This document shows, in pieces, positions 3,562 through 9,387 of a stretch of DNA of 11,126 nucleotides. Made by a program: the position numbers and the translations under genes. Location of the stretch: NCBI GenBank assembly GCA_009779045.1, contig WREZ01000026.1, positions 1 through 11,126 on the forward strand, in the 5' to 3' direction. Every line of letters begins with the position of its first letter. The stretch's first letter is position 1. This stretch comes from Candidatus Bathycorpusculum sp. GTDB lineage: Archaea; Thermoproteota; Bathyarchaeia; Bathyarchaeales; Bathycorpusculaceae. The notes beneath the pieces are model-generated. The model had not been told where the DNA came from. It searched no databases and saw only the letters and a list, made by a program, of their open reading frames with translations.

Positions 3562-3597
3562 AAAAAGAAGGAGGGTGTTAGACGTTGATTACTCAAC
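3562..3597 (-). terminator. small hairpin plus U-tract at the end of mscL
   Basis: On the minus strand GTTGA-GTAA-TCAAC (plus-strand 3584-3597) can fold into a 5-bp stem straddling the mscL stop codon. About 18 nt later comes a pyrimidine run ending in five T (complement of 3562-3566). Archaeal termination mainly needs the U-tract, so the hairpin may be incidental. Confidence 0.3.
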
Positions 3598-3975
3598 GCC
3601 CCAACGTTTTGCAACTTTGACTGCGATAAATACCAGTAAAGCTACTAATGCGAAGGTAAACAAAGCAACCAAAAAGTCTCCATACGCAAATATCTGAGAT
3701 CCAACTTTAACTGTTCCCTCAGCTAAGTTGTCTAAACCAGGAATAAGCAAACCAATAGCTGGCAACATTAAATCTTTGACTAACGCCTGAATCAAAATAC
3801 CCAAGTACATACCGATAATGAACGCAATAGCAAGACCAAATATTTTATATTTAGATAAAAAGTCTTTGAACTCAGTCCACAGAGTTTGTTTTGGCGGAGG
3901 TGACGGTGGAGGTGCTTTTTCTACGGATTCTCTAATTTTTCGCAATTCAGCTAATATTTCTTCATCGTTTGTCAA
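3589..3975 (-). CDS. mscL: large-conductance mechanosensitive channel MscL with N-terminal extension
   Basis: MscL is a homopentameric pore in the cytoplasmic membrane that opens under tension to release solutes on osmotic downshock. From TTG 3975 the protein is 128 residues. A charged helix (DEEILAELRKIRESVEK, about 4-20) is followed by a proline linker (APPPSPPP, 21-28), the family's N-terminal amphipathic segment TEFKDFL (34-40), TM1 (about 45-67), ALVKDLMLPAIGLL (64-77, matching SLVADIIMPPLGLL of E. coli MscL), a short periplasmic loop and TM2 (about 98-121). The end, KVAKRWGVE, lacks the cytoplasmic helix bundle of the E. coli protein. Aligned by eye, the E. coli gate residues L19, G22 and V23 correspond to Leu, Ala and Phe. 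TTG 3975 has GAGG at 3985-3988, 9 nt upstream. The farther ATG 4032 sits only about 10 nt from the likely TATA box, so it should lie outside the transcript. Confidence 0.88.
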   Translation of the reverse strand: MTNDEEILAELRKIRESVEKAPPPSPPPKQTLWTEFKDFLSKYKIFGLAIAFIIGMYLGILIQALVKDLMLPAIGLLIPGLDNLAEGTVKVGSQIFAYGDFLVALFTFALVALLVFIAVKVAKRWGVE

Positions 3976-4041
3976 TAATAATAACCTCAAATATTCTGCA
4001 ACAAAATAGCTAATAAAAATATCCGTCAACATTGACGACGT

Positions 4042-4051: not shown

Positions 4052-4163
4052 ATAATCAGAAAACGGAAAAATGAGAAAACCTTTAGACACACCAAACAAT
4101 ATTCATCTAAAAAGTATGATTTATCCGTAAAGGACTTATCTTAATTTTATACATTTAATAATA

Positions 4164-4230
4164 GTGGATGATGAGCCTAGAGTCGCAAGAGCCAAAAGCA
4201 ATGATATTGACTCGACGGGCGGACTGACAC
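4164..4230 (+). ncRNA. candidate C/D box sRNA guiding 2'-O-methylation of 16S C1402
   Basis: C box ATGATGA (4168-4174) and D box CTGA (4224-4227) enclose about 50 nt. GTG (4164-4166) before the C box can pair with CAC (4228-4230) after the D box, as in the terminal stem of a K-turn. Directly before the D box, CGACGGGCGG (4213-4222) is the reverse complement of CCGCCCGUCG. CCGCCCGUC is the near-universal 16S sequence at E. coli positions 1399-1407. The nucleotide five positions upstream of the D box is G4219, and by the 'D box plus five' rule it selects C1402. The internal C'/D' pair is degenerate: ATGATAT (4201-4207) or ATATTGA (4204-4210) for C', with no clean CUGA for D'. I could not assign a target to the first guide. 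C/D sRNPs act with fibrillarin, Nop5 and L7Ae, none of which is in this window. Confidence 0.5.
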
Positions 4231-4628: not shown

Positions 4629-5879
4629 TTAGTATATTATGCCCAGAAGAGTTGTGTAGTCCACAATGTAGCCTAATACGCCTACTAAATATGATAGGCC
4701 CCACATAATCAGCAACAGTTTCACTATCCGCCTGCTTCGAACAGGAAAAGTAGTAGAGTTGGGACGCCAAAGTGCGACAAACCAGACTCCGAAGGCGAGG
4801 GCTGGAATTGAAAATATGCCATGGGCGATAAATTCGGCAAGTTTAGTGGTTGAACTGAAATATACTGCTACGGTATTTGCGCTATCTGAGGGAGTCCACA
4901 TAAAGAGAACTGAGGCAAAACTAATTAGAGTTGCGATAACCACCGCAGTCATTAAAAATCCATGGATAAAATTATTTCCGCTTTTTCTAAAGCTTATACT
5001 TGCCAAAATCAGACTCATCCAAACACTTTGCATAATCATATTAACTTCTGCGTCACTTAAACCCCTGTTCATCCAAAACGCAGGTATAACTATATAGGCA
5101 AATACTACAACACCTATAATTATAACAGCAGGAATTGATTTTTTTGTCAGTATGGGATAACGTAAGCTAAGGTTTATCAACTTTTTCTTTTGCCAAATAC
5201 ACAGAGCTGAAACAGATAGTACAACTACAAACACTAAACTTGAGATAACTAAAGCAAAAACAGATTGTTCAAAACCAAGAATTTGCCGGTTCCACATGTT
5301 AGTACCCGTAGCTCTAATGGTCATTGTCAAATTATCGAAGTACCATCCATCTTTGTTTGTGAAGGCTTGTTTAGTTTCTACAGAACCAATAAAGACCCCA
5401 GTGGCTTTATCCCATTCTTTAATTTGCCGTAATTCATCACTTCCACTTGTTACAACTCGTGTCGCACCCAAAACTGTTCGCTGCTCTTCACAATGGACAG
5501 TTACAGTAGCAAATGGAGAGCAGTCAAAAAATGTGTCACCAGGATCAAGGTTAGCTGGGATAATTGTCCAACCACCAGTAAGTCCTTCAGTAAAGTTATA
5601 TGTCCAAATCGCACTACCCAATGTTCCATTAGCGTATCTAACAGTAACATTCACAGGAAACATTACGCCATCAACAGATAAAATCTCTATACGCATCCAC
5701 CGTACATCATGAGACGGCGGCAAACTACCAGCACCAGTTACTGTAATATCATATTCCATCCAGTCACCTTCTTTAACACCTACAATTTGCTCTGCATAAA
5801 CAGGTGTAAATAAGGCAAAAAATGAAAGCCCAAATAGTAGACTTACCAAAGCTAAAACGGCTACTTTCTTCATCTTCAT
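4629..5879 (-). CDS. exported, six-helix membrane protein of unknown function
   Basis: I do not recognise this 416-residue protein. It starts with a clear signal peptide (MKMKKVAVLALVSLLFG..., likely cleaved after VYA at about residue 29). An outward-facing, beta-rich region of about 175 residues follows, beginning with VGVKEGDWMEYDITV. This region has four N-glycosylation sequons (NVT, NGT, NFT, NLT) and two Cys about a dozen residues apart that could form a disulfide. Six hydrophobic segments make up the rest: ALVISSLVFVVVLS; AVIIIGVVVFAYIVI; MIMQSVWMSLILA; LMTAVVIATLISFA; IPALAFGVWFVALW; LLLIMWGLSYLVGVLG. The layout is a secreted sensing or binding domain on a membrane anchor, similar in style to many uncharacterised archaeal surface proteins. 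No ribosome binding site precedes ATG 5879 or the in-frame ATG 5873, so initiation may be leaderless. It is transcribed divergently from eL22 and has no cotranscribed neighbour. Confidence 0.7.
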   Translation of the reverse strand: MKMKKVAVLALVSLLFGLSFFALFTPVYAEQIVGVKEGDWMEYDITVTGAGSLPPSHDVRWMRIEILSVDGVMFPVNVTVRYANGTLGSAIWTYNFTEGLTGGWTIIPANLDPGDTFFDCSPFATVTVHCEEQRTVLGATRVVTSGSDELRQIKEWDKATGVFIGSVETKQAFTNKDGWYFDNLTMTIRATGTNMWNRQILGFEQSVFALVISSLVFVVVLSVSALCIWQKKKLINLSLRYPILTKKSIPAVIIIGVVVFAYIVIPAFWMNRGLSDAEVNMIMQSVWMSLILASISFRKSGNNFIHGFLMTAVVIATLISFASVLFMWTPSDSANTVAVYFSSTTKLAEFIAHGIFSIPALAFGVWFVALWRPNSTTFPVRSRRIVKLLLIMWGLSYLVGVLGYIVDYTTLLGIIY

Positions 5880-6201
5880 ATTAAAATAGTGGAATAAAGC
5901 GAGTTAAAAAACATTTGCATAAAAAGGTGATTTCGAGTTGAAAGTTGCTAAAAGCTGAAGTTGAAAAGAGGCAGATTATTGTTTATTGGAAATAAATTGT
6001 ATGTTCACAACTTAGATGACTTGACAGACTAAACACTATAAAGCACGCGTCTATACAATATGTACATTCTATGGGCGGTTTGTTTAACCATTTCTGAGCC
6101 AAATTTGAAAGTAACTAGCGGAAAACTTATCAGTACAATAAACATAAACAAAGGAAAAATAAAGACGTAAAAATTGATGCTCAACAATAGAGGTGAAAAA
6201 T
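5880..6201. promoter_or_regulatory. divergent intergenic region between membrane protein and eL22
   Basis: The 322 bp must carry promoters for both flanking genes. For eL22 the best TATA-like stretch is GAAAAATAAAG (about 6154-6164), with the ribosome binding site GAGG at 6190-6193, 8 nt before ATG 6202. For the minus-strand gene, the T-rich word in the complement of about 5920-5927 is a weak candidate. I find no RNA gene or repeat. A 65-codon minus-strand frame (6029-6226) overlaps the eL22 start and looks like a chance frame. Confidence 0.35.
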
Positions 6202-6486
6202 ATGGTTGAAATGAAAATTGATGCAAAGGAAATAAAAAGTAAAAATGGCATGGTTCAAAAATATGCTGATTTCATTAAAGAAAAGACAAACGCTGATGTG
6301 TCTAATGATGCTAACACTATAACAGTAAAAGGTGAAGGCCCTGCAGTAGCTAAAAAATACTTACGTATATTAACCAAAAAATTCCTACATAAATATGAAT
6401 TAATCGACACTTACCGCGTAATTGCTGACGAAGGCGAAAATACACTGCAAATCAAAGAACGTAAACTAAACGAGGAAGAAGATTAA
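6202..6486 (+). CDS. rpl22e: ribosomal protein eL22 (L22e)
   Basis: This is a 94-residue basic protein with an acidic tail (NEEED). Its second half, AVAKKYLRILTKKFLHKYEL followed by IDTYRVIADEGENTLQI, lines up by eye with the eukaryotic eL22 core (from memory [20 protein letters not shown], then RDWLRVVA), and the tail matches the acidic C-terminus of eukaryotic eL22. The N-terminal half has the expected strand-helix-strand pattern: MKIDAKE, MVQKYADFIKEKT, NTITVKG. In eukaryotes eL22 binds 28S rRNA on the large subunit near the exit side. ATG 6202 is chosen because GAGGTG (6190-6195) is its ribosome binding site; the upstream GTG 6193 is part of that site. The next gene, after 156 bp, encodes eL14, another large-subunit protein. 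As I recall, eL22 is absent from the classical archaeal ribosome set and was noted in Lokiarchaeum, so its presence here is notable. Confidence 0.82.
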   Translation: MVEMKIDAKEIKSKNGMVQKYADFIKEKTNADVSNDANTITVKGEGPAVAKKYLRILTKKFLHKYELIDTYRVIADEGENTLQIKERKLNEEED

Positions 6487-6642
6487 ACACTTCTTTTCCA
6501 TTTAACAAAAATTATTTTATAAATTCAAGTAAATAGGTAACTGCTTAGAAGAGAGAACATTGTTTGTGTTTTGTTTAGCAACATTTTTATGTCAAACTTA
6601 AATAGCCTGTATTGTTATGTGTAAATTGGAGGCTAAATAAGA

Positions 6643-6906
6643 GTGCCTGCTATAGAAATTGGAAGAATATGTGTTAAACAAGCTGGTCGAGAACAGGGTA
6701 AAAAATGTGTCATTGTTGATGTGATGGATAAGAGTTTTGTTCTTGTTACTGGGCCAAAAAATCTTACTGGAGTTAAACGTCGAAAAGTGAATTTGGAGCA
6801 TATTTCGGTTCTTGAAGATAAAGTTGAAGTTAGGCGTGGAGCTTCAGATGAGGAAGTAGTTCAAGTTTTAGAGTCTGCTGGTAAAGCAGAGTTAATGAAA
6901 GCCTAG
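6643..6906 (+). CDS. rpl14e: ribosomal protein eL14 (L14e)
   Basis: This is an 87-residue large-subunit protein with the KOW-type SH3 barrel of eL14: IEIGRICVKQAGREQGKKCVIVD, then DKSFVLVTGPKNLTGVKRRKVN and LEHI at the end of the barrel. A short acidic-basic helix follows (DEEVVQVLESAGKAELMKA). The length is normal for archaeal L14e and much shorter than the eukaryotic form. It starts at GTG 6643 with GGAGG at 6628-6632, 10 nt upstream. It lies 62 bp before cbf5, the conserved archaeal rpl14e-cbf5 order. In many archaea rpl34e and cmk precede it; here eL22 is the nearest upstream gene instead. Confidence 0.93.
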   Translation: MPAIEIGRICVKQAGREQGKKCVIVDVMDKSFVLVTGPKNLTGVKRRKVNLEHISVLEDKVEVRRGASDEEVVQVLESAGKAELMKA

Positions 6907-6968
6907 TTTTTGGATTCAAACTTTAATTACCTCAACTATATCTTTTTCTTTTATTAGGAGATTTACTG

Positions 6969-7988
6969 TTGCCAAGAACTAGTCCGCCATGGGATGTTAA
7001 ACGTGAAGTCTTGATAAAGTCAGATGATAGGACTAATCCCAAGTTTGGTCATAAGCCTTCTGAGCGACCAGCAGAAGAGTACATAAAATATGGTGTTATA
7101 AACCTTGATAAACCGGCTGGACCTACGAGTCATGAGGTGGCTGCGTGGACAAAAAAGATTCTAAAATTATCATCTATTGGTCATGGTGGGACATTGGATC
7201 CTCAGGTGACGGGTGTGTTACCGGTTACTTTGGAGGAATCTACAAAGATTGTACAGGCTCTTCTTCACACAGGTAAGGAGTATATCTGTGTTATGAAGTT
7301 ACATGGTGATGTACCGGAGGGTCAGGTTCGTAGTGTTTTGGTTGAGTTTGAGGATTTAATTTATCAGCGTCCTCCTTTGCGTTCGTCTGTTAAACGTCAG
7401 GTTCGTACAAGACGTATTTACTATAATGAGTTTATTGAGATGGATGGGCGTAATGTTCTTTTTAGGGTGGGTTGTGAGGGGGGTACGTATATTCGTAAGC
7501 TTTGTTATGATATAGGGGAAATTTTGGGTGTTGGTGCTCATATGCAGGAGCTGCGGCGTTCTCGTGCGGGACCATTTACGGAAGATAGCGTAAAGCATGT
7601 TACTTTGCATGATATTGCTTACTGGTTTGGGGAGTATCAAGTAAAGAAGGATCCGGAGTTATTGCACAAGTTTATTGAGCCTATGGAGTCGGCTCTTGAG
7701 TTAATTCCGAAAATTGTGGTGCGTGATTCAGCTGTTGATGCGTTGTGTCATGGTGCTAGTCTTACGGCTCCAGGAGTTGTGACAGTTGACTCTGGTATTC
7801 AAAAAGATACCTTAGTTGCAGCTATGACTCTAAAGGGGGAAGTTATTACGCTTTCGAAAGCTGTTGAGCCTACGGAGCGAATTTTAGATCTTGAACATGG
7901 TATTGTTGCAGCTCCTGAGCGTGTGTTAATGCCAAGGGGTACTTACCCGAAGGTTTGGAAAACCGGTAAAGAAAATGGTCAAGAATAA
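6969..7988 (+). CDS. cbf5: Cbf5, catalytic subunit of H/ACA RNP pseudouridine synthase (TruB/dyskerin family)
   Basis: Cbf5 converts uridine to pseudouridine in rRNA under H/ACA guide RNAs, together with Nop10, Gar1 and L7Ae, and can modify tRNA U55 on its own in some archaea. The 339-residue protein has the TruB opening YGVINLDKPAGPTSHEV, the catalytic loop GHGGTLDPQVTGVLPV with catalytic Asp77, KEYICVMKLHG, YQRPPLRSSVKR, the GGTYIRKL motif, and a C-terminal PUA domain (about 250-325) ending in the MPRGTYPKVWKTG signature. Length and motifs match full-length archaeal Cbf5. It starts at TTG 6969 with AGGAG (6956-6960) 8 nt upstream. The 3' end overlaps the following methyltransferase by 14 nt, so translation is probably coupled. 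Confidence 0.96.
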   Translation: MPRTSPPWDVKREVLIKSDDRTNPKFGHKPSERPAEEYIKYGVINLDKPAGPTSHEVAAWTKKILKLSSIGHGGTLDPQVTGVLPVTLEESTKIVQALLHTGKEYICVMKLHGDVPEGQVRSVLVEFEDLIYQRPPLRSSVKRQVRTRRIYYNEFIEMDGRNVLFRVGCEGGTYIRKLCYDIGEILGVGAHMQELRRSRAGPFTEDSVKHVTLHDIAYWFGEYQVKKDPELLHKFIEPMESALELIPKIVVRDSAVDALCHGASLTAPGVVTVDSGIQKDTLVAAMTLKGEVITLSKAVEPTERILDLEHGIVAAPERVLMPRGTYPKVWKTGKENGQE

Positions 7989-8613
7989 AAAAGAGCCTGC
8001 TATTGCCGGCGATCATTATTTTTCTTCTTTACCTCAATCTGAAGCTAAATATGGTTTAGTACGAGCTAAATTTTTTGGTAAAAATTTTGAATTTATAACG
8101 GCGTCTAGTGTTTTTTCTAAGCGTCGTATAGATACAGGTACGCGGTTGCTTATTGAATCTATGGTTCTTCCTGTAACAGGTGTAGTGTTAGATATTGGCT
8201 GTGGCTATGGAGCAGTAGGTATTACTGCGGCAGCGCTTAATTCTAAATTACAAGTTTATTTATCAGATGTTAACGCTAGAGCGGTTAGTTTATCAAAAAA
8301 GAATGCTGAGCGTAATAGAGTTTTTAATGCGCAAGTGCGTTGTGGCTATTTGTATGAGTCCGTAGAAGACTTAAAATTTGATTGTATACTGTCAAACCCG
8401 CCGGTAAGTGCGGGTATGGAAATAGTAAAAGCAATTATTACAGGAGCCCCAAAAGTTATGTGTTCAGAAGCGGTTTTTGAGATGGTTATCCGCTCCAAAA
8501 TTGGTGTAAAACTATTTCCAGCTTTATTTATTGAAACATTTGGTAACTGTACTATTGTCTCAAGAGAGAGCGGGTTTAGAGTACTATTAGGCAAATATTG
8601 TGGTGGCAATTAG
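7975..8613 (+). CDS. class I SAM-dependent methyltransferase, MTS/RsmC-like (MJ0882 type)
   Basis: This 212-residue protein has a short N-terminal segment with the family phrase VFSKRRIDTGTRLLIESM and a Rossmann methyltransferase fold: motif I LDIGCGYGAVG (72-82), acidic loop SDVNARA (97-103) and motif IV SNPPVSAG (140-147). (N/D)PP(Y/F/I/V) motifs are typical of enzymes methylating exocyclic nitrogens of bases. The tail FGNCTIVSRESGFRVL resembles the C-terminal strand pair of the MTS family, whose bacterial members RsmC/RlmG make m2G in rRNA. From memory, M. jannaschii MJ0882 is the nearest characterised structure. Its ATG lies inside the end of cbf5 (14-nt overlap), so both are likely read from one mRNA, pointing to an RNA substrate. 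The exact target is unknown. Confidence 0.83.
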   Translation: MVKNKKEPAIAGDHYFSSLPQSEAKYGLVRAKFFGKNFEFITASSVFSKRRIDTGTRLLIESMVLPVTGVVLDIGCGYGAVGITAAALNSKLQVYLSDVNARAVSLSKKNAERNRVFNAQVRCGYLYESVEDLKFDCILSNPPVSAGMEIVKAIITGAPKVMCSEAVFEMVIRSKIGVKLFPALFIETFGNCTIVSRESGFRVLLGKYCGGN

Positions 8614-8733: not shown

Positions 8734-9387
8734 TTAGGTTTGTGTTTTGTCTGTTGTGCTACCTGTGGGCATGCCGGGTGGTAGATCTGGGAAGTTTGCG
8801 TTGATTTTTTGTTCTGCGACTATGGCGGCTTCTGAGAGTATTTTTGTTGCGTCTTCGCTAACTGAGTTGAAGTTAAGTGACATTCCGCTTCCTTGTCCTG
8901 CTTCTAGCATTACGCCGCTTAGCATGTCGCCGATTTCGCTTAGCTCGTTTTCTGCGGCTGGTAGGATTCCGCCCATTCCAGAGTTTACGCTTCGAAGTAC
9001 GCCGATGCATGGGCCTAGCATGGATACTACGTCGCCTAGTTCTGTTACGGTTTTTATTCTAAGGTTTATTTGGTCAAGGGCGAGTCTGGCGTTCATGATA
9101 ATTTTGGACATTTTGCGGATTTCAGCTAGTTCGGTTGCGTAAATGTTTGCGTGTGCCATGTCGTGTTGTTGGTATGAGTCTACGAGTTTTGTAAATAGGG
9201 TTTTGTCTTTTTGTGTGAAGCGGTCGCTTGTTTGGTCTAAGCGTTGTATTTGTGCGTCAAGTTTTCGGGTGGCTATATCTAAGCGGGGTTTTAGGGGTTG
9301 TTGGGGTTTAATGGTTTGGTTAAGTGAGTTTAGAAGTGAGTTTTCGTCTTTTTTTTGTTCCCATTTTTTTGTGAAATTTTCAGACAT
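8734..9387 (-). CDS. ESCRT-III (Snf7 family) CdvB-like membrane-remodelling protein
   Basis: Archaeal ESCRT-III proteins polymerise on membranes and drive cell division and vesicle scission, being remodelled by the AAA ATPase Vps4/CdvC. This 217-residue protein has a polar N-terminus (1-30), then a long helical core typical of archaeal CdvB paralogues: LKPRLDIATRKLDAQIQRLD (32-51), helix 2 ending in HDMAHANIYATELAEIRKM (75-93), IIMNARLALDQINLRIKTVTELGD, and VLRSVNSG.....AAENELSEIGDMLSGVM. After a Gly/Ser-rich linker and a short helix (SEDATKILSEAAIVAEQKI), the tail FPDLPPGMP (199-207) resembles a proline-rich MIM2-type Vps4-binding motif. No winged-helix domain follows. ATG 9387 has GAGG at 9397-9400 (minus strand), 9 nt upstream. 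Which CdvB paralogue it is cannot be decided here. Neither CdvA nor CdvC lies in the window. Confidence 0.87.
   Translation of the reverse strand: MSENFTKKWEQKKDENSLLNSLNQTIKPQQPLKPRLDIATRKLDAQIQRLDQTSDRFTQKDKTLFTKLVDSYQQHDMAHANIYATELAEIRKMSKIIMNARLALDQINLRIKTVTELGDVVSMLGPCIGVLRSVNSGMGGILPAAENELSEIGDMLSGVMLEAGQGSGMSLNFNSVSEDATKILSEAAIVAEQKINANFPDLPPGMPTGSTTDKTQT

Follow-up and report, generated by a model that had tools for sequence, protein, structure and literature searches.

A candidate C/D box guide RNA for C1402 of 16S rRNA in Bathyarchaeia, with a covarying stem between its two guide regions

The window (the whole stretch of DNA analyzed, 11,126 nucleotides from Candidatus Bathycorpusculum sp.) contains a C/D box guide RNA gene at positions 4164–4230 of the plus strand, as defined by its boxes and by an alignment with its relatives. 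The conservation of boxes and guide, the match of the guide to the rRNA of relatives, and the presence of genes for the partner proteins strongly support the view that the RNA is aimed at C1402 of 16S rRNA. From comparative sequence analysis, we consider it highly probable (roughly 0.88) that the RNA is a C/D guide for this residue and that a short internal stem, which joins its two guide regions, is part of the working fold. The Cm1402 mark and the guide-RNA type of machinery are already known; as far as our searches of the literature went, this RNA family, its internal stem, and its combination of a predicted helix 44 target with a predicted helix 69 target are new.

Results

Layout of the RNA Gene

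The window has a single RTGATGA-N38-56-CTGA frame, counting both strands. Such a frame, together with a complement of at least 9 nt to 16S or 23S rRNA before box D, occurred in 3 of 600 shuffled strands (mononucleotide shuffling in 200 nt blocks, with the complement judged against a relative's 16S or 23S). The gene and the promoter-like element upstream of it have the following features.

4126–4144, plus strand: promoter-like element CGTAAAGGACTTATCTTAA, BRE/TATA-like, lying some 30 nt before the C box
4164–4166, plus strand: 5' strand of the terminal stem, GUG, pairing with CAC at 4228–4230
4168–4174, plus strand: C box, AUGAUGA, invariant or nearly so in 30 copies
4175–4186, plus strand: D' guide region, 12 nt, holding AGAGUC (4179–4184), a 6 nt match to 23S helix 69
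4180–4184, plus strand: 5' strand of the internal stem, GAGUC, all cells paired, with compensatory changes
4187–4190, plus strand: D' box, degenerate AAGA; CUGA, CAGA, or TAGA in relatives
4191–4199, plus strand: K-turn stem I and loop of the C'/D' motif, GC-CAAAA-GC, with GC/GC pairs
4201–4207, plus strand: C' box, AUGAUAU, its TGA invariant in 30 copies
4209–4213, plus strand: 3' strand of the internal stem, GACUC, from RNAalifold and covariation
4213–4222, plus strand: D guide, CGACGGGCGG, complementary to 16S 1399–1408
4224–4227, plus strand: D box, CUGA, invariant in 30 copies
4228–4230, plus strand: 3' strand of the terminal stem, CAC, pairing with GUG at 4164–4166

A single unpaired nucleotide (A4223) lies between the D guide and box D, and C4213 is common to the internal stem and the D guide, its partner being either G4180 or G1408 of 16S rRNA. 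The terminal stem is short (2–3 bp); its cells are paired in 81% of cases in the 30-copy alignment and in 76% among 55 further sequences, and about half of the sequences lack its outermost pair. The GC/GC pairs of the C'/D' K-turn are present in 98–100% of cells in both alignments, and the GAGC...GC-NRU-GA pattern of this motif, from which we infer a sheared G-A geometry with a 3 nt bulge, is invariant or nearly so in the 30 copies.

An earlier sequence-only reading of this DNA had pointed to the coincidence of a C box, a D box, a terminal stem, and a 10 nt guide, and this coincidence was found again both in the window and in the alignment. The same reading had described the D' box as unclear. 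The box is indeed degenerate in the window, but the alignment places both C' and D'. The loose spacing that it had remarked upon between guide and C' is real: C' and D are 16 nt apart, and C and D' are 12 nt apart, the latter within the 10–12 nt usual for archaeal spacers. The window gave no Rfam match at E ≤ 5; Rfam membership does not define the C/D class.

Conservation and Distribution

A 141 nt query around the gene matched 29 of 61 genomes, its own included. The distant matches contract to approximately query positions 46–111 (window 4165–4230), and their sharp edges fall at the ends of the RNA, which is what an RNA gene should show. Alignment with relatives, which had been proposed as a check on the initial assignment, yielded 30 copies (genome G027 contributes two) in which the C, D, and guide blocks are conserved: the C box, the GACGGGC core of the guide, and the D box with the C that follows it are invariant or nearly so, and the guide of L012 carries one mismatch, an A for a G. 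A chance C/D-like sequence with no function would suit the shortness of the motifs and the ordinary folding energy reported below, but the sharp-edged conservation in dozens of genomes, the covariation of the internal stem, and the rarity of comparable frames in shuffled strands (3 of 600) leave this explanation next to no probability.

A covariance model (R1) found matches in 109 of the 256 genomes of the class, and in 69 of the 120 that are at least 90% complete and at most 5% contaminated. Within the window's family, 78 genomes match and 12 listed ones do not (a hand count of R1 rows); two of these 12 are given as 100% complete, the nearly complete family members G157, G159, and G125 have no R1 match, and the match in G010 is marginal. 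Most genomes of the other families in the class gave no R1 match. Two RNA-gene matches were seen in some genomes, namely G027 (C80, C99), CP070730 (L144, L159), G122, and G192.

A pattern scan of named genomes gave 88 stretches, of which 80 were listed, 70 of them archaeal and 10 bacterial by title. Among these 80 listed matches, 59 bear Bathyarchaeota or Bathycorpusculum titles (a hand count), and the other 11 archaeal ones include Heimdallarchaeota (L109, L116), Hecatellales (L111, L164), an "archaeon" record (L162) with the same RNA as L109 and L116, and further archaeal titles. The 10 bacterial-titled matches (L095, L102, L104, L117, L128, L130, L134, L145, L151, and L168) are chance matches and were dropped before the counts, and eight further loci, L172–L179, apparently from the same scan, entered them. 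By sequence resemblance among the matches listed, the window RNA is closest to the RNAs of Bathycorpusculum records.

A strict pattern matched 31 of 398 genomes of the phylum, with none in a reversed control. Four of its hits lie outside the class. One (L207) is ambiguous, and three (L208, L209, and G538) are compact C/D-like matches that carry the same D guide, with GACGGGCG placed 2 nt before CUGA and 48 nt from TGATGA to CTGA; their C'-to-D distance is short by eye, and their likeness to the window RNA is judged by pattern and by eye. Matches occur in 7 of 227 genomes of the phylum to which the Heimdallarchaeota record belongs: three have the AGAGAGUCA form, three have another D' side, and one is ambiguous. 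The sharing with the Heimdallarchaeota-type group is thus narrow, and the RNA may have been transferred between lineages.

The D Guide and Its 16S Target

G4219, the fifth nucleotide before box D, faces C1402 of 16S rRNA under the D+5 rule. We found no 16S match in the window's own metagenome-assembled genome, and the target was therefore read from relatives. Of 30 relatives' 16S loci fetched, 28 were used (L054 and L055 were left out), and all 28 read CGCCCGTCG, with ACCGCCCGUCG at the target site. The complementarity of the guide to decoding-site 16S rRNA, with C1402 in the D+5 register, was thus borne out in relatives, and the G at position 1408, which the guide needs and which had been named as a point to look up, is present in every one of these loci. 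The window guide pairs with 16S 1399–1408 over 10 bp, and most relatives' guides pair with 1400–1408 over 9 bp. In each of the seven 16S loci that we scanned for guide matches, the 1402 site was the best one. Duplexes of 8–10 bp lead to high methylation in vitro (PMC7089733). Family searches showed that the genome encodes fibrillarin, a Nop-domain (Nop5) protein, and two L7Ae-family genes.

A role as a chaperone or processing guide, in which the RNA would bind its targets but leave them unmethylated, would explain the noncanonical C'-to-D spacing, as archaeal C/D spacers are 10–12 nt long and this length is essential for methylation (PMC3608112). We regard such a role as improbable: the RNA keeps box D and the D+5 register to C1402, fibrillarin is kept as well, and Pyrococcus abyssi, yeast, human, and bacteria all carry a 2'-O-methyl group on C1402 (PMC7005279).

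A Covarying Stem between the Two Guide Regions

RNAalifold predicted a helix that joins the guide regions, pairing GAGUC (4180–4184) with GACUC (4209–4213). A second predicted helix, of 3 bp inside the guide and box D, would block the guide and was disregarded. In the 30 copies, all cells of the internal stem are paired and two columns are compensatory, with a change of UA to CG in 6 sequences and of CG to UA in 5. For the whole structure, the number of doubly changed cells and the covariation score exceeded those of all 500 shuffles, and the measure of further pair types, reached by 478 of 500 shuffles, showed no excess. We also examined 55 further distinct sequences, hand-picked from rows outside the 30-copy model alignment and aligned by fitting to the structure. 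In this set, 90% of the cells of the internal stem pair, and there are 33 doubly changed cells, compared with a shuffled mean of 8.6 and a value as high in 0 of 500 shuffles, with the caveat that changes within one clade may be one event. Pairing dropped clearly when the stem partner was slid along the sequence.

Variant stems include GAGCUA/UAGCUC, GAGAG/CUCUC, and GGGCG/CGCCC. When G-U pairs are allowed, 74 of 88 distinct rows have a helix of 5 bp or more, compared with 3,119 of 17,600 shuffled segments. Where such a helix occurs together with a clear D'/C' (71 rows), the stem ends directly before GACGGGC in 61 cases, and this flush end leaves 10 nt before box D. The C'-to-D distance is 15–17 nt in 70 of 82 rows (12 rows were excluded). 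The looser than usual C'-to-D distance of 16 nt in the window RNA would be accounted for by the internal stem, which may restore a working guide length, as the 10 nucleotides that it would leave unpaired fit the 10–12 nt rule. The stem is not unusually stable: the folding-energy z scores of the window RNA (−0.35) and of two relatives (+0.68 and −0.52) are not significant, and that of a Heimdallarchaeota RNA is −1.92. In the minimum-energy fold of the window RNA, some guide nucleotides are paired with the 5' spacer as well.

The GAGCU forms keep the stem by compensatory change although they retain only 4 nt of match to helix 69, and the 16S rRNA of G012 and G015 is unchanged alongside the GAGCU change in their RNAs, which suggests that in these forms the stem is selected for itself. 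The same comparison bears on the idea of a D' target in 16S helix 44 itself, where GACUCU (the form in the genus) lies about 19 nt downstream of C1402. The window's AGAGUCGC can indeed pair over 8 bp with GCGACUCU of relatives' 16S rRNA, and GACTC stands at that place in 16 of 28 16S loci. However, the 16S of G012 and G015 keeps GACTCT while their RNAs have GAGCT, and the other 12 loci lack GACTC, including that of G005, whose RNA keeps AGAGTCAC. A helix 44 target for the D' guide is highly improbable, and we rejected it, as the 16S rRNA does not change with the RNA and the motif is absent from those 12 loci. We also set aside other D' matches in 16S loci, such as that to TTCTAGTGC, which are short, rely in part on wobble pairs, and occur only with the GCACTAGAG form.

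The D' Side and 23S Helix 69

The first four 23S sequences that we fetched all read CUCUGACUCUCU at helix 69, and this stretch is complementary to GAGAGUCA, the D' segment of many relatives that belong to other genera than the window. A helix 69 complement of at least 8 nt occurs in 35 of 88 rows, compared with 75 of 17,600 shuffled segments. Since related rows are dependent, these figures should not be read as probabilities; they derive from 89 distinct rows (88 scored; L111 was counted twice, with overlapping C boxes), among which some members are unsure (e.g., L174, L180, L181, L208, and L209).

For the register, the D' box was set by the conserved GAGC core and rows without a clear D' were left out; the looser split behind the 88-row counts places the D' GA too late in some rows, namely L092, L118, L122, L164, L169, and L175. 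Of 34 strong rows, D'+5 falls on C1920 in 29, on A1919 in 3 (the Heimdallarchaeota-type RNAs), and on U1923 in 2, where the longest match sits in another register. Rows with 7 nt matches point to U1921 in 14 of 17 cases, and those with 6 nt matches are divided among C1922 (4), C1920 (2), and U1921 (2), so a consistent register is confined to the strong matches. In yeast snoRNAs, the position of the methylated nucleotide is shifted by an unusual C'/D' stem II (PMC5389607), and the D' register here is uncertain for that reason. The helix 69 match is 4–7 nt long in the window's genus and 6 nt in the window's own RNA, which keeps the C1920 register; L114 keeps a 5 bp stem with a helix 69 run of only 3 nt.

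The three Heimdallarchaeota-type RNAs match helix 69 over 11 nt if the two sides of a 23S insertion are joined, as we assumed; 8 nt (UGACUCUC) match directly before the insertion. These RNAs have about 12 nt from C' to D by eye and an internal stem of at most 3 bp. The insertion itself, seen in L217, L218, and L219, is large, lies at the 3' side of helix 69, and is probably an intron; it adjoins or splits the D'-guide match, and full pairing of the D' guide would need its removal.

These matches raise the alternative that the RNA is an active dual guide in the window's genus too, directed at 16S C1402 and at 23S C1920/U1921, with the stem being incidental. The internal pairing would then be explained by the resemblance of the segment before the D guide to the helix 69 target. 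The excess of long complements over shuffled segments, the C1920 register of most strong rows and of the window's own match, and the 11 nt match of Heimdallarchaeota-type RNAs that have almost no internal stem all fit this alternative. The shortness of the window's match, the shift to U1921 in 7 nt rows and the mixture in 6 nt rows, the GAGCU variants with their compensated stem, and the case of L114 count against it, and we consider it possible but doubtful.

In the Hecatellales-type and distant forms (L111, L147, L164, and L175), the C1402 guide is kept next to a different D' guide, UUCAGCCUU. A small set of 16S and 23S loci from other genomes yielded no trusted target for this guide, and the two Hecatellales records yielded no 23S match.

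Discussion

Under the reading that we prefer, in which the RNA guides the modification of C1402 and the internal stem belongs to its working fold, the stand-alone gene would be transcribed in the Bathyarchaeia archaeon, and L7Ae, Nop5, and fibrillarin would assemble on both kink-turn motifs of the RNA. Nucleotides 4213–4222 would pair with 16S 1399–1408 and place C1402, in the D+5 register, in the active site of fibrillarin, and the RNP would 2'-O-methylate this residue. Within the RNP, the GAGUC/GACUC stem would extend the C'/D' kink-turn and end at the guide; with the stem standing, 4214–4223 (10 nt) would be unpaired, and 9 bp with 16S 1399–1407 would be possible. The D' side, which fits helix 69 at C1920 in many relatives, has probably largely decayed in the window's genus.

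The helix 69 complementarity in relatives suggests that one RNA could serve both sides of a main intersubunit bridge, and an RNA with targets on either side of bridge B2a may have been the ancestral state. We tentatively extend this idea, at less than even odds, to a history in which the family (Bathyarchaeia and a few Heimdallarchaeota-type members) served both B2a faces and then acquired a self-pairing switch, whereby the D' guide pairs either with 23S rRNA or with the RNA itself. UGACUC, a copy-like piece of the helix 69 target, would have been gained before the 16S guide in Bathyarchaeia; self-pairing would set the 16S guide to 10 nt and might order or couple both methylations; and in the window's genus the 23S job would have faded while the stem remained.

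The window RNA shares with archaeal C/D box sRNAs the C, D, C', and D' boxes, a short terminal stem, the D+5 register, a guide right before D, a size of 60–70 nt, and the genes for the partner proteins. Its family differs from them in the C'-to-D spacer, which is 15–17 nt long in 70 of 82 rows instead of 10–12 nt, with a covarying stem between the two guide regions. The internal stem represents a testable departure from the fixed spacer rule for archaeal guides. Human and yeast guides for the 1402 site are SNORD43 and snR70.

The significance that the sequence-only reading had attached to an archaeal RNA-guided route to Cm1402, as the same mark made by another machinery, does not hold: the mark has been mapped in an archaeon, and it is RNA guided in Arabidopsis. 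Cm1376 of P. abyssi is the equivalent of m4Cm1402 in E. coli, Cm1639 in yeast, and Cm1703 in human, and all modified nucleotides in the corresponding table except hm5C were observed by LC-HRMS; the accessible text of this source names no guide RNA for the site (PMC7005279). At the equivalent site of Arabidopsis, Cm1645 is made by a C/D snoRNP with U43 (PMC11542601), and the likeness between U43 and the window RNA lies in the target site only, the descent of the guides aside. Few sites have been predicted in helix 44 (at E. coli 1408 and 1494), and helices 68, 69, and 71 are hotspots (PMC4644070).

In bacteria, m4Cm1402 is made by RsmH and RsmI, which (in the case of RsmI) act on the same residue but are stand-alone protein enzymes rather than an RNA guide. 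The 16S site of another bacterial enzyme, TlyA, is C1409 in E. coli numbering, not C1402. In Bacillus, TlyA modifies helix 69 as well as helix 44, like the candidate target pair of this RNA family, and is again a stand-alone protein enzyme (PMC12805891). Our search of the literature, which covered mostly open-access papers without their supplements, found no report of a C/D RNA from Bathyarchaeia and no single sRNA with a helix 44/helix 69 target pair. With the window RNA, a large and mostly uncultured archaeal class gains a concrete candidate for the guide of the widely shared Cm1402. The RNA fits a division in which archaea and eukaryotes make Cm1402 with RNA and bacteria make it with a protein enzyme.

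Genomic Surroundings

The RNA gene is flanked by an MscL-family gene (3589–4032, minus strand) and by an open reading frame (4629–5879, minus strand) that gave no Pfam family, and none of the listed open reading frames of at least 60 amino acids overlaps it. A conserved block resembling CGTAA..GACTTAT lies upstream of the gene in the 30-copy alignment, and its CTTA starts 29–32 nt upstream of the C box in 27 of the 30 copies, the window's own included. The position and sequence of this block are consistent with an archaeal promoter belonging to the RNA gene itself.

Farther along the window, a cluster at 6193–8613 encodes an L22e-family ribosomal protein (Pfam E 6.3e-8), which we take to be of eukaryote type, a small KOW-like protein that falls below the Pfam cut-off and is L14e-like by eye, a Cbf5/TruB-type pseudouridine synthase, and a small-domain methyltransferase. 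A Snf7-family (ESCRT-III, CdvB-like) protein is encoded at 8734–9387 on the minus strand, with a Pfam E value of 1.3e-6, just over the cut-off.
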